Part shown: positions 2,106 to 61,128 of the stretch, piece after piece
Numbering within the stretch: the stretch's first letter is position 1
How the letters are laid out: every line of letters begins with the position of its first letter
Origin: Halovenus carboxidivorans
GTDB taxonomy: Archaea; Halobacteriota; Halobacteria; Halobacteriales; Haloarculaceae
DNA: 64,000 bases
Direction of reading: 5' to 3'
NCBI RefSeq assembly: GCF_009831575.1
Contig: NZ_WUUT01000003.1
Span: 246,748-310,747 of the forward strand
Notes under the pieces: generated by a model
Told to the model about the DNA's origin: nothing
Seen by the model: the letters and a program-made list of their open reading frames with translations, nothing else
The model's database searches: none
Made by a program: the position numbers and the translations under genes

Positions 2106-4354
2106 CAGAAATCACCCAGATTCGCCTGGTCGTCCGAGTCCGCGCTCCCGTCGCCGCCGTCGGTCGTCGTGACCTCTGCGGAGCCGACATCGGGGTCCGG
2201 TTCGACTCCGTCCATCGACGGATCGCGGTGGCCAGCGTTTTCGAGGATGTTTTCGGCGGTTTTCTCCCGACCGCGCAGCGCGGCCAGCACCGTCGACTTG
2301 TCGGCCTCCCGCAACGCCGCTCGGTCCTCGATCCCGGCGTCGTAGAGCCGCCGTGCTCGCTTGCGGCCGACGCCGCGAACGCCCGCCAGATCGACCAACT
2401 CGGCGCGGACGCCGTGTTCGACCCGAAGGCGGGCCTCGCGGATCTCCCCGCCGAGGCCGAGTCCGAGTTCGCTCGACAGCGACTCTGCCGCGCCGAGCAG
2501 CCACTGTGCGGTGTCGACTTTCCCGCGGATGTCTCCCGGTCCGATGCCGTACCGCTCGGTGATCTCGGACTCGTCGAGTTCGCTCGCCCAGTCCTCCAGC
2601 AGGCGGGCGGTCTTCAGCGCCGACAGCCAGTCCTCGAACTCGTCGTTGAACTCCGAGGGAGCCCGCCCGAGCAGTTCGCTCTCGCGCTCGTGAGCGAGCA
2701 TCGTGTACTCCTCCTCGTCGCCCGACCGGAGGTAGAGTTCGTACATATCCGGCGTCCGGCAGACCAGGTGGTAGAGTCCGAGCGGCGTCGGATCGCCGTC
2801 TTCGAGACCGTCGATGATCTCCGCGGCGCTCATCGGGTCGAGATAGAGCCGCGAGACGGTGTGGCCGAGATTCGTCGCCGCCAGGCCGTCCCCGTCGCGC
2901 TCGAGGAAGTCGTTGACCTCCAGGTACGCGATCACGTCGTCGACGACCTGTTCGAGGCGGGCGCGGTCGGCCGTCTGTGCGGCGTACAGCGTTCCGTCGA
3001 GAAAGTCGAGCAGCCCCTCGCGCGAGCGGGCGAACCCGGAGGCCACGGTCGCGAGAATGTGCGTCCGGAGGGCGGGTTCGGCGGCGAGTTTCGACCGGAC
3101 CGGCTCGGGGTCGGCCCAGACGTACCGCTCGAACAATTCGTCGAGTTCGTCGTGCCCCGAGGCCAGCAGCACGGCCTCGCCGTAGGGATCCCGGCCCGGC
3201 CTGCCCGCTCGGCCCATCATCTGGTGGACCTCCAGCACGGACAGCGGCTGCATCCCGCCCGCCGTGCCGTCGTATCGCCGCCAGTCCCGGACGACGACCC
3301 GCCGCGAAGGGGTGTTGACACCGGCCGCCAGCGTCGGCGTCGCCGAGACGACCTTGACGAGGCGGTCGCGGAAGGCGTCCTCGACGAGCGTGCGGTGATC
3401 CCGGGAGAGGCCGGCGTGGTGGAAAGCCGCTCCCTTCTCGACGGCCTCGGCCAGATCCTCGCTCGTGTCGGTATCGCTCACGCCGCGGATCTCCTCCGCA
3501 ATCTCGGCCAGTTCGGCTCGCTCCTCGTCGGTCAGCGCGTCGTCGGTCGTCGTCGCGAGCCGACGAGCCGAGGCCTCGGCGTTTCGCCGCGAGTTGACGA
3601 ACACGAGCGTCGACCCGTCGTCTTCCAGCGTGTCCCGCACGATTGCGGCGGTCTGTTCCTCGCTGTTTCGCACGGGCAACCGCTGTTGGCTCCCGTCTTC
3701 GAGATGTAACGCCTCGCCGTAGTGGACGCCTTTCTTGAGTTCGATCGGCCGCCACTCCGAGTCGACCAGTTCGGCGTCGAGCCAGCCGGCGAGTTCGTCG
3801 GCGTTGCCGATGGTCGCGGACAGCGCGACCGTCTGGAGGTCGGGGTTCAGCGACCGGAGTTTGGCCAGCGTCACTTCGAGCGTGGGGCCGCGCTCGCCGT
3901 CGTCGACCAGATGCACCTCGTCGGTGACGACACAGGAGAGGTCGTCGAGCCACTTGGCGTCGTTGCGAACGAGCGAGTCGACCTTCTCGCTGGTGGCGAC
4001 GATGATATCCTTCCCCGACAGCCAGCCCCCGTCGGACTCGTAGTTACCGGTCGTGACGCCGACGTCGAGACCGTACTGCTCGAACTCGGCGAACTCCTCG
4101 TGTTTCTCGCTCGCGAGCGCGCGCAAGGGAACGATGTACAGCGCCGTCCCGCCGCGGTCGACCGCGGCGGCCATCGCCAGCGTCGCGATCAGCGTCTTCC
4201 CGCTCGCAGTCGGAATCGAGGCGACGAGATTCTCGCCCTCGGTGACACCGGCGTCGACGGCCTCGGCCTGCGGAGGGTACAGCGACTCGATCCCGTCGGC
4301 TTCGAGGTGGTCGCGGAGCCAGGACGGGATCGACGGAATCTCCGAAGTATCCAT
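2105..4354 (-). CDS. hel308: ATP-dependent DNA helicase Hel308
   Basis: A superfamily 2 Ski2-like 3'-5' DNA helicase acting at stalled forks and in recombination repair, 749 aa, the normal family length. In order: Q-motif region [11 protein letters not shown] (25-35), Walker [11 protein letters not shown] (46-55), DEVH box (145-148), SAT motif VALSATIGN (about 176-184), motif [12 protein letters not shown] (about 380-389), and a winged-helix/ratchet region ending in helix-hairpin-helix [16 protein letters not shown]. The acidic tail [13 protein letters not shown] is typical of halophiles. ATG at 4354; it heads the hel308 - cgi121 - OYE operon. A confident assignment. Confidence 0.95.
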
Positions 4355-57290: not shown

Positions 57291-58460
57291 ATGAAATTAG
57301 CGATGATCGGCTTCGGACAGGCGGGTGGGAAAATCGTCGACAAATTCATCGAGTACGACGAGCGGACGGGCAGCGGAATCGTCCGCTCGGCCATCGCGGT
57401 CAACACCGCGAAAGCCGACTTGATGGGGCTGGAGCACGTCCCCGAGGACAACAGGGTCCTGATCGGGCAGGCACGGGTCAAAGGCCACGGCGTGGGGGCG
57501 GACAACGAACTCGGCGCGGAGATCGCCGAAGAGGATATCGACGAGGTGCAGGGAGCCATCGACAACATCCCCGTCCACGAGATCGACGCCTTCCTGGTCG
57601 TCGCCGGACTCGGCGGCGGAACCGGCTCTGGCGGGTCCCCGGTGCTGGCGAAACACCTCAAACGGATCTACACCGAACCGGTCTACGGCCTGGGCATCCT
57701 GCCGGGAAGCGACGAAGGGGGCATCTACACGCTCAACGCCGCCCGATCCTTCCAGACGTTCGTCCGCGAGGTCGACAACCTTCTGGTCTTCGACAACGAC
57801 GCCTGGCGGAAGACCGGCGAATCCGTCGAGGGCGGGTACGAACAGATCAACGACGAGATCGTCCGCCGGTTCGGCGTCCTGTTCGGAGCCGGTGAGATCG
57901 ACGCCGGCGACAACGTCGCCGAGAGCGTCGTCGACTCCTCGGAGATCATCAACACCCTCTCGGGTGGCGGCGTCTCGACGGTCGGCTACGACGCCGAAAG
58001 CGTCGAGACGAGCAGTTCGGGCGGACTGCTCTCCCGGTTCAAGGGCGACGACGACAACATCGAATCCGCGAACACGACGAACCGAATCACCTCTCTCGTC
58101 CGGAAGGCGGCGCTCGGCCGACTCACGCTGCCCTGTGAGATCGAAGGGGCCGAGCGCGCGCTGCTGGTCGTCTCCGGACCGCCGAAACACCTCAACAGAA
58201 AGGGCATCGAACGCGGTCGGAAGTGGCTCGAAGAGCAGACCGGCAGTATGGAGGTCCGCGGCGGCGACTACCCGATCAACGAACCGAACGTCGCCGCGGC
58301 CGTCCTCCTGTCGGGCGTGCACAACGTCCCCCGGATCAAGGAACTCCAGCAGATCGCAATCGAGGCACAGGAGAACATCGACGAAATCCAGGAAGAGAGC
58401 GAAGAGAATTTAGAGACCCTTGTCGAAGATGATGAAGATGAACTGGACCCACTCTTCTAA
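57291..58460 (+). CDS. cetZ: tubulin/FtsZ superfamily GTPase CetZ
   Basis: 389 aa archaeal tubulin-like cytoskeletal GTPase. Seen: FGQAGGKIVDKFIEYD (T1), the tubulin signature GGGTGSGGS (108-116), NTAKADLMGL, the T7-like region and an acidic, disordered tail after about 360 (IDEIQEESEENLETLVEDDE). CetZ1 is needed for rod shape and motility in Haloferax volcanii; the gene order cetZ - small membrane protein - cofC - cofG seen here recalls the cetZ1 neighbourhood there, as far as I remember. TATA-like acttatgtgt lies at 57251-57260. Confidence 0.94.
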   Translation: MKLAMIGFGQAGGKIVDKFIEYDERTGSGIVRSAIAVNTAKADLMGLEHVPEDNRVLIGQARVKGHGVGADNELGAEIAEEDIDEVQGAIDNIPVHEIDAFLVVAGLGGGTGSGGSPVLAKHLKRIYTEPVYGLGILPGSDEGGIYTLNAARSFQTFVREVDNLLVFDNDAWRKTGESVEGGYEQINDEIVRRFGVLFGAGEIDAGDNVAESVVDSSEIINTLSGGGVSTVGYDAESVETSSSGGLLSRFKGDDDNIESANTTNRITSLVRKAALGRLTLPCEIEGAERALLVVSGPPKHLNRKGIERGRKWLEEQTGSMEVRGGDYPINEPNVAAAVLLSGVHNVPRIKELQQIAIEAQENIDEIQEESEENLETLVEDDEDELDPLF

Positions 58461-59172
58461 GATCATCGTTGTAGCGGTATTGCTTGCCACGTCACTCATG
58501 GCGAGTGGAACAGCGGCGGCCTTCGAGTTCGACGACAGCGGCGTCAGCGACGAGATGCAGGTCGGCCAGCAGGAAACTGCTACCGTCGTCATTCAGGAGC
58601 CGTTCGCCGAACGGGATGTCGGCTGGACGCTCGTCGTCGACTCCGAGTTCGAGGACGCCGGAATCACGATCACGACCACCACGGTCGACGGAACGACCAA
58701 CCAGGTCTCCGGTGAGGGGCGCGCCCAGATGACCCTCGACAACGAGGGGATCAGAGAGGTCGAAATCGAGGTGAGCGGGACGGTCCCCGAGATCCAGCAG
58801 TACAGCTACGAGAGTCCCGAGCAGGAGAACTTCACGGCCCTTCGGATCAACGACAGCAGCGGAGTCATCGAGACCTGGAGTGTCCACCGCTACACCGAAC
58901 AGAGCCGCGAAGCCCGCAACCGCCTCGACGAGGCCCTCGAGTACACCAGCCAGGACAGCCAGGACTTCCAGTCGGCGGTGACGCTGTACAACAGCGGTGA
59001 GTTCGAGCAGGCCACGGCCGAAGCCGACTCGATCATCGACAGCGGCGAGAGCAGCGAGCAGACCCAGACGCTGCTGTTCGCCGGCGTCGGTGTCGTCGTT
59101 TTGCTCGTACTCGCTGGCGGTGGCTACTACCTCTACCAGCAGCGCTCACAGAACACGAACAAACTCCAGTAG
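58429..59172 (+). CDS. secreted/anchored protein linked to cetZ, unknown function
   Basis: About 247 aa. The ATG at 58429 lies inside the cetZ tail (32-bp overlap); ATGs at 58432 and 58438 are equally usable. N-terminal Sec signal KIIVVAVLLATSLMASGTAA, then a beta-rich domain (GQQETATVVIQEPFAERDVG, NQVSGEGRAQMTLDNEGIRE) like an Ig/CARDB fold, a helical TPR-like region (EARNRLDEALEYTSQDSQDF) and a C-terminal membrane helix LLFAGVGVVVLLVLAGGGYY with a short tail. Type I topology: most of it outside, tail inside next to CetZ. Not recognised as a family. Confidence 0.75.
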   Translation: MMKMNWTHSSKIIVVAVLLATSLMASGTAAAFEFDDSGVSDEMQVGQQETATVVIQEPFAERDVGWTLVVDSEFEDAGITITTTTVDGTTNQVSGEGRAQMTLDNEGIREVEIEVSGTVPEIQQYSYESPEQENFTALRINDSSGVIETWSVHRYTEQSREARNRLDEALEYTSQDSQDFQSAVTLYNSGEFEQATAEADSIIDSGESSEQTQTLLFAGVGVVVLLVLAGGGYYLYQQRSQNTNKLQ

Positions 59173-59175
59173 GCG

Positions 59176-59796
59176 ATGGACGTTTTCGTTCCGTTCGATC
59201 CGCGCGATCCAAACTCCCGTCTTTCGTCCGTCTTATCGGCCGATCAGCGCCGCGCGTTCGCGGCCGCGATGCTCACCGACGTGCTCGATGCGATCCGAGC
59301 CACGGGCCGAGAGCCGACGATCCTGAGCACCGCGGATCTGGACCGCTCCTGTGCCGTCGTCGTCGACGACCGACCGCTCACCGAGGCCGTCAACGGCGTT
59401 CTCGACGCGACGACGCCAGCGGCGGTCGTGATGGCTGATCTCCCGCTCGTCACACCGGAGGCGGTCGACCGGCTGCTCGACGCCGACGCGGCGGTGACGC
59501 TCGCACCGGGGCTCGGCGGCGGCACGAACGCGCTCTGTGCGCGGCACCCGGGGTTTCGGGTGGATTACCACGACGGCTCCTACCGGAAACACCTCGCCTC
59601 GGCCGAGGAGTGCGGGGCGAGCGTCCACACGCTCGACTCGTTTCGTCTCGCGGTCGATGTCGACGAGCGTGCGGACCTCGCAGAAGTACTGCTCCACGGC
59701 GAGGGAGAAGCGGCGGCGTGGCTCCGGGACGCGGGCTTCGAGATCGAGATAACCGACGGACGCTGCACCGTCTCCACGGCCGCTGGGGGCCGCTGA
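59176..59796 (+). CDS. cofC: 2-phospho-L-lactate guanylyltransferase, F420 biosynthesis
   Basis: 206 aa MobA-like nucleotidyltransferase that activates phospholactate (or phosphoenolpyruvate) for coenzyme F420. MDVFVPFDPRDPNSRLSSVL with the P-loop-like start, VVMADLPLVTPEAVDRLL (metal DLPLV), LAPGLGGGTNALCAR and FRLAVDVDERADLAEVLLHG are typical of CofC. It follows the anchored protein by 3 bp, so it is in the cetZ transcription unit. Confidence 0.9.
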   Translation: MDVFVPFDPRDPNSRLSSVLSADQRRAFAAAMLTDVLDAIRATGREPTILSTADLDRSCAVVVDDRPLTEAVNGVLDATTPAAVVMADLPLVTPEAVDRLLDADAAVTLAPGLGGGTNALCARHPGFRVDYHDGSYRKHLASAEECGASVHTLDSFRLAVDVDERADLAEVLLHGEGEAAAWLRDAGFEIEITDGRCTVSTAAGGR

Positions 59797-59834
59797 CGGG
59801 CGTCTGACGCGGCAAGAAAGCTTTTGACCCGAGA

Positions 59835-59964
59835 GTGCGTACGTCCGCGTGCACGGGCCGACCCGTGCATGGGTACGTGTCTCGCGCCGCGCACCCGCAA
59901 CCGTGCCAGGCTCCACCGCTCTTGGTACTGTCGGCCGGCCCCACTCCCATGGCCGGCCGTTTTC
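59835..59964 (+). ncRNA. candidate structured RNA (three tandem hairpins)
   Basis: Three hairpins in a row in the cofC-cofG gap: TGCACGGG-ccga-CCCGTGCA (59850-59869); GUGCCAGG-10 nt-CUUGGUAC (59903-59928) with two G-U pairs that only work if the plus strand is transcribed; CGGCCGGCC-10 nt-GGCCGGCCG (59932-59959), then TTTT (59960-59963). A TATA-like agcttttga (59817-59825) lies about 25-30 nt before the first stem. It could be a small RNA, or a 3' end/leader element of the flanking F420 genes. No tRNA, SRP or RNase P signature was found. Confidence 0.45.
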
Positions 59965-60000
59965 GTGACTCCTTTGAGCGTCTGGCTCGGATAGAGTCGT

Positions 60001-61128
60001 GTGAGTGTCGACGTTACCGACATCCCCGCCGGAGCAATCGACGAACTGGTAGCCGTCCGGCCGCCGGATGTCGACTCCGCAGATCACCTCTCGTTCGCCC
60101 GGAACGTCTTCGTCCCGCTGACGACCGCCTGCCGATACACCTGTACGTACTGCACCTACTTCGACCCGCCCGGTGAGGCGTCGCTGCTTTCCCCCGAGGA
60201 GATCCGCGACATCGTCCGCGAGGGGGCCGACGCGGGCTGTACGGAGGCGCTGTTCACCTTCGGTGACGACCCCGACGACCGATACACACAGATCTACGAG
60301 CAACTCGCCGAGTACGGCCACGAGACCATCCACAGCTACCTCCGCGAGGCCTGTGAAATCGCCCTGGCGGAGGGACTGCTCCCGCACGCCAACCCCGGCG
60401 ACCAGACGCGTGAGGAGATGGCCGCAGTCGCGGATCTCAACGCCAGTATGGGCGTGATGCTCGAAACCACCGCCGACGTGGCCGCCCACAGCGGCCCCCG
60501 CGTCAAGACCCCCGAGCAGCGGATCCAGACCATCGAGACGGCCGGCGAACTCGGCGTCCCGTTCACGACGGGCATCCTGGTCGGCATCGGCGAGGACTGG
60601 CGGGACCGTGCCGAGAGCCTGCTCGTCATTCGGGAGCTACACGAACGCTACGGTCACATCCAGGAGGTCATCGTCCAACCGGTCGTCGAGAACGAACGCT
60701 GGCACGGCGGCGAACCCGACCTGGAGACGCTCCGCCGGACGGTCGCGATGGCACGGACGGCCCTTCCGGGGGAGGTCTCCCTCCAGGTGCCGCCGAACCT
60801 CGCGCCCGCCGGCGAGGTCGTCGACTGCGGAATCGACGACCTCGGCGGTGTCTCGCCGGTCACCGACGACCACATCAACCCCGACTACGCCTGGCCGGCG
60901 CTCGATCACCTGGAGACCATCGCCGAGGAGGCGGGCGTCCCGCTGTCCGAGCGCCTGCCGGTCTACGAACGGTATCTTCCCGAGGCCCTCCGTGGTGAGT
61001 CCTTCACAGCGACGCCCGCAGAGGCACCGATCCGCGGCGGCGAGTGGATCTCCCAGCGCATCCGCGAGGAACTCACCGCCGACAGCGAGGCGGGGCGTCG
61101 GTACCGTGCCGTGATCGACGGCTACTAG
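60001..61128 (+). CDS. cofG: FO synthase subunit 1 (7,8-didemethyl-8-hydroxy-5-deazariboflavin synthase)
   Basis: 375 aa radical SAM enzyme making the deazaflavin chromophore of F420 with CofH. GTG start at 60001. Cluster motif TACRYTCTYCTYF with Cys44/48/51 in the normal Cx3Cx2C spacing; the core FGDDPDDRYTQIYEQLAEYG, SMGVMLETTADV and GILVGIGEDWRDRAESLLVI; the C-terminal part GGVSPVTDDHINPDYAWPAL is conserved in CofG. cofH is not in the window. Separated from cofC by the hairpin region. Confidence 0.94.
   Translation: MSVDVTDIPAGAIDELVAVRPPDVDSADHLSFARNVFVPLTTACRYTCTYCTYFDPPGEASLLSPEEIRDIVREGADAGCTEALFTFGDDPDDRYTQIYEQLAEYGHETIHSYLREACEIALAEGLLPHANPGDQTREEMAAVADLNASMGVMLETTADVAAHSGPRVKTPEQRIQTIETAGELGVPFTTGILVGIGEDWRDRAESLLVIRELHERYGHIQEVIVQPVVENERWHGGEPDLETLRRTVAMARTALPGEVSLQVPPNLAPAGEVVDCGIDDLGGVSPVTDDHINPDYAWPALDHLETIAEEAGVPLSERLPVYERYLPEALRGESFTATPAEAPIRGGEWISQRIREELTADSEAGRRYRAVIDGY

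Follow-up and report, generated by a model that had tools for sequence, protein, structure and literature searches.

The window analyzed here is a 64,000-nucleotide stretch of the Halovenus carboxidivorans genome, in which a structured element lies among the plus-strand genes cetZ, cofC and cofG. The tubulin-like gene cetZ (57291-58460) was identified by its match to Pfam CetZ_C (E 5e-83), cofC (59176-59796) by matches to Pfam PF01983 and NCBIfam TIGR03552, and cofG (60001-61128) by matches to NCBIfam NF004884 and TIGR03550, the latter four all above cut-off. The position of the element between two coenzyme F420 genes, noted in the original prediction, agrees with these gene identities. The stretch between cetZ and cofC (58420-59172) encodes a protein with a signal-like N-terminus and a C-terminal hydrophobic segment, for which the Pfam search returned no matches and the NCBIfam search only a weak one, below cut-off. 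The spacer between cofC and cofG is 204 nt long, and the element begins about 50 bp past cofC. It very probably represents an RNA gene on the plus strand (59850-59963, about 113 nt), the ends of which are deduced from promoter spacing and a T-run, and most likely a stand-alone gene for a structured non-coding RNA. A covariance model, R1, which we built from 15 copies of the element, matches positions 59850-59962 with 115.7 bits.

Four hairpins make up the predicted fold, all on the plus strand. Hairpin 1 (59850-59869; UGCACGGG-CCGA-CCCGUGCA) is nearly invariant in sequence, with 97.5% of its alignment cells paired. Hairpin 2 (59871-59896) has a GGGU/ACCC stem, hairpin 3 (59903-59928) has a GUGCCA/UGGUAC stem and the loop CUCCACCGCUCU, and hairpin 4 (59932-59959) has a CGGCCGGCC/GGCCGGCCG stem with CCCAU in the loop and is followed directly by a TTTT run (59960-59963), which is the likely 3' end or termination signal. 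Hairpins 2 and 3 both have C-rich, conserved loops, containing CUCGCGCC and CACCGCUC, respectively. Hairpins 1, 3 and 4, the TTTT run and a TATA-like box ahead of them had all been placed correctly from the window alone, while hairpin 2, which is supported by the alignment of copies, had been overlooked. When folded as the plus strand, positions 59835-59964 reach -66 kcal/mol (z -3.69), with none of 200 shuffled sequences being as stable, as compared to a far weaker z of -0.94 for the minus strand. In one species (L008, 3328-3424), hairpin 2 is cut down to GGGUACGCAACCC, which still forms a hairpin. As the conserved CUCGCGCC loop is lost there, this loop is dispensable in that species.

In a nucleotide search of 59 relatives, the spacer was matched strongly in Halovenus (best E 6e-50) as well as in a further two genera, and in total the element was found in four genera, namely Halovenus, Salinibaculum, Halosimplex and the genus g13. 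When the cofC-cofG gaps were aligned across genera, a check that had been proposed together with the original prediction, conserved blocks were seen to be separated by variable DNA, the stems were conserved and compensatory changes were clear in the 3' hairpin; absence of the stems from related genomes, which would have spoken against a real RNA, was not what we observed. Among 146 genomes of the family, R1 matched 19, with one copy in each and a best E of about 1e-17. Twelve of the 18 Halovenus genomes were among these, the remainder belonging to g13, Halosimplex and Salinibaculum. All eight Halosimplex genomes retain at least the promoter and hairpins 1 and 2, with the 3' half being divergent and hairpins 3 and 4 poorly preserved. 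A further R1 search, covering 392 genomes drawn from the order, gave no match outside Halovenus. In many other haloarchaea, the cetZ-cofC-cofG order is kept with a spacer of just 50-140 nt that does not contain the RNA. From this distribution of matches, together with the short RNA-less spacers found elsewhere, the RNA is judged to be lineage-specific.

Two further loci should be mentioned in this respect. A viral contig (L203) carries the exact 18-mer of hairpin 1; as cof genes are absent from the contig, and so is the remainder of the RNA, we took this match to be due to chance. In a metagenome-assembled genome whose CofG is 78% identical (L010), the cofC-cofG spacer (3127-3459, 329 nt) is GC-rich and strongly folding, and presents TTTT 29 nt ahead of a different perfect hairpin. 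This spacer is possibly a diverged homologue or an analogue of the RNA, although its comparison with the RNA gave no demonstrable homology.

Across the aligned copies, 93.4% of the cells of the whole structure are paired, as compared to 89.1% in shuffled alignments and 27-42% in slid controls. Cells in which both partners changed number 18, versus 6.2 in shuffles, and none of 500 shuffles reached 18; it should be considered that these shuffles ignore the relatedness of the copies, although the slid controls and hairpin 4 taken alone agree in direction. The covariation comes mostly from hairpin 4, where the basal pairs show three to five pair types and 64 cells are paired, the maximum in 10,000 shuffles being 59. 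This hairpin varies widely and yet stays paired, with variants such as GGAAGCC/GGCUUCC, GGAAACC/GGUUUCC, GGUGUUU/GAACACC and GGCAGU/ACUGCC. In hairpin 3, L012 has U-A in place of C-G, with both partners changed; several G-U variants are found as well, and a possible counterpart in L028 (GCGUCG/CGACGC) was recognized by inspection. Hairpin 1 hardly varies, such that its pairing is neither backed nor contradicted by covariation.

The helices also indicate which strand is transcribed. Over the 15 relatives, 45 cells hold a G-U pair and only 13 hold A-C, the combination that would read as G-U on the minus strand. On account of this excess, the plus strand is taken to be the RNA, in agreement with the strand originally proposed on the basis of two G-T pairs in the middle stem; in the conserved GUGCCA/UGGUAC stem of the window, however, there is one G-U pair and not two. 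The same counts bear on the idea that the palindromes are maintained as DNA sites for protein binding and not for the sake of an RNA. At the DNA level, hairpins 1 and 4 form inverted repeats that are close to perfect and could serve in this manner, but the G-U pairs strongly favour one strand and the sequence of hairpin 4 changes freely while its pairing is kept, making such a DNA element very improbable. Protein coding by the element is likewise unlikely, since the lengths of the indels that separate copies are not divisible by three and stop codons break the frames in several copies.

Ahead of the RNA lies the TATA-like box CTTTTGA (59821-59827, plus strand), the TTTT of which occupies positions -29 to -26 relative to 59851, and TA at -11/-10 (59840-59841, plus strand) fits the haloarchaeal WW element. 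In 24 aligned copies, in which positions were numbered relative to the first G of hairpin 1, T is found at -29, -28 and -27 in all 24 and at -26 in 23, and A at -34 in 22. A at -10 (17/24) and T at -11 (14/24) are found mostly in the Halovenus and Salinibaculum copies. Haloarchaeal promoters are characterized by a TTWT TATA-box consensus and a WW element (PMC4983044), and as the spacing of TTTT and TA fits this arrangement, the 5' end of the RNA should fall at 59850/59851, at the foot of hairpin 1. At the other end, a run of four to five T follows hairpin 4 in 9 of the 15 copies, including most Halovenus-type copies. A simple scan for bacterial terminators found no match in the element, because the scan demands five T in eight.

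A second TATA-like box, TTTGAG (59973-59978, plus strand), is located about 27 nt ahead of the GTG start codon of cofG. A TTT box is similarly placed at RNA-bearing loci (read by eye in L003, L008 and L070). In L173 and L175, two genomes of Halovenus whose cofG lies away from cetZ-cofC, the gene retained its CGTGAC-TTT promoter, with the RNA not being found in these incomplete genomes. The cofG gene is probably leaderless; most transcripts of Haloferax volcanii are reported to be leaderless (PMC4983044). These observations bear on the two cis-acting roles that had been proposed along with a new small RNA. The first of these is a structured 5' leader of cofG, namely a riboswitch or attenuator sensing F420 or a precursor. 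Its appeal is that the element lies on the same strand immediately 5' of cofG at every copy for which the context was read. A leader is nonetheless improbable, considering that cofG has its own box in RNA-bearing genomes, that this box is kept where cofG has moved off, that the distance from hairpin 4 to cofG is variable, that many haloarchaeal cofG genes lack such a leader and that leaderless transcripts prevail in H. volcanii. Even less probable is the second, that the element is the 3' trailer or terminator region of the cetZ-cofC transcript: it does lie shortly past cofC and ends in a hairpin and T-run, yet a promoter of fixed spacing stands between cofC and the element, a terminator has no need of conserved loops and the element is missing from genomes of identical gene order. 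With a conserved promoter of its own and a separate, conserved cofG promoter that fits a leaderless start, the RNA is favoured to be separate from both cofG and the cetZ-cofC transcript, such that the stand-alone small RNA is the proposal that we retain. The tie of the element to F420 is only positional, and the cofC-cofG site is a stable home for the RNA and not a pointer to cofG as a target.

The promoter of the RNA in Halosimplex (L028, about 3184-3215, and L131-L137) contains a strongly conserved CGAAATTCGGACAACGGTTTTCA stretch. A related stretch, CCGAAATTGGGTCTGAATTCGGAGAATCCTTTT, is carried by the L010 spacer mentioned above (about 3130-3170), and similar promoters are found in other genera upstream of genes for a TFB (L195), a ferritin-like protein (L194) and a DUF7282 protein (L200). 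This suggests that CGAAATTCGGACAACGGTTTTCA-type promoters are a shared promoter class or operator.

In terms of known RNA families, a search of the window against Rfam 15 gave no matches at the gathering cut-off, and at a relaxed threshold the best matches reached 13-14 bits, as compared to cut-offs of 37-55. The original view that no standard family fits thus holds, and a match to a known family, which would have spoken against novelty, was not encountered. Guide RNAs were considered individually. The C box RUGAUGA of box C/D RNAs is present in 0 of 15 copies and the D box CUGA is absent from the window's element, while the ACA of H/ACA RNAs is missing in 7 of 15 copies, that of the window included. 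Taken singly, loops 3 and 4 do not pair to the rRNA region above the level of shuffles, and the best site for loop 2 in that region is a 10-bp match about 660 nt upstream of 16S in its own genome, which was not found in relatives. Archaeal H/ACA guide RNAs are alike in being small, multi-hairpin RNAs, but differ in that the RNA described here has no conserved ACA box, Rfam match or convincing rRNA pairing. Conservation, covariation, promoter placement and the lack of an Rfam match together argue for a real and new small RNA.

As to how such an RNA might work, we propose that it would be driven by its own TATA promoter, beginning at the base of hairpin 1 and ending in the T-run that follows hairpin 4. 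Hairpins 1 and 4 would probably shield the 5' end and set the 3' end, respectively, while hairpins 2 and 3 would present their conserved C-rich loops for base-pairing in trans with G-rich stretches of mRNAs, as has been proposed for other intergenic haloarchaeal sRNAs. Since the sequences of loops 2 and 3 are conserved while the stems tolerate change, a trans-acting sRNA with pairing loops is the most likely reading, although we would give action as an antisense regulator only about an even chance. The search for targets should be considered here. Exact 12-mer complements of the hairpin 3 loop (AAGAGCGGTGGA) and of the hairpin 2 loop (GGCGCGAGWCAC) revealed no recurrent gene in the 18 Halovenus genomes; matches fell in the RNA itself and in scattered genes, and one coding-region match common to L142 and L148 is absent from the genome of the window. 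Pairing of the RNA with the start region of cofG is not consistent among copies, and pairing tests with the neighbours cetZ and cofC gave no conserved target. A cluster of pairing in cofC seemed to be shared but proved to consist of a different sequence in each species, and was rejected as a target.

The main rival to a trans-acting sRNA is a structural RNA that binds a protein or the ribosome, with hairpin 1 and loop 2 being recognition sites, such that a protein is sequestered or scaffolded or the ribosome is modulated with no pairing to mRNA. The near-invariance of hairpin 1, well beyond what pairing needs, suggests a protein site equally well, the loop-complement and neighbour searches produced no conserved target, and a ribosome-associated intergenic RNA, rancRNA_s194, is reported in H. 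volcanii (PMC6104027). Conservation extends, however, to the loops of hairpins 2 and 3, as it would for pairing seeds, and we regard this role as possible but rather unlikely. More speculative, and in our opinion doubtful, is that the RNA is the first member of a new class of archaeal RNA confined to this lineage, in which the invariant 5' hairpin and the conserved loops form a specific binding site for a protein, the ribosome or a metabolite, with a possible link to F420 or CetZ physiology by way of the fixed home between cofC and cofG. With its conserved structure, its fixed locus, predicted ends that are defined and its presence in named isolates, the RNA is well suited to deletion experiments and to the study of targets.

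The element presents the features expected of a haloarchaeal intergenic sRNA gene, namely its own promoter at the correct spacing, an intergenic and non-coding location and a conserved secondary structure. The literature covered, which was incomplete and without supplementary tables, describes haloarchaeal sRNAs of a similar kind but none at the cofC-cofG locus. The H. volcanii intergenic sRNAs sRNA132 and s479, which reportedly act in trans on mRNA coding regions (PMC6560208, PMC8155600), are similar in being small non-coding RNAs from intergenic genes. They differ in genome context and lineage, and R1 revealed no sequence relation across the 392 genomes drawn from the order. To rancRNA_s194, the likeness is by description, this also being an intergenic haloarchaeal RNA and one that illustrates a possible alternative action at the ribosome. 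Finally, a metatranscriptome of Atacama halite revealed 22 intergenic ncRNAs, with no function assigned, in multiple Halobacteria species (PMC7002113), which are similar in being conserved intergenic RNAs of Halobacteria, with Halovenus not being named in the main text. The element described here may thus be considered a previously unlisted intergenic haloarchaeal sRNA gene, possibly one already detected among the RNAs of that halite community.
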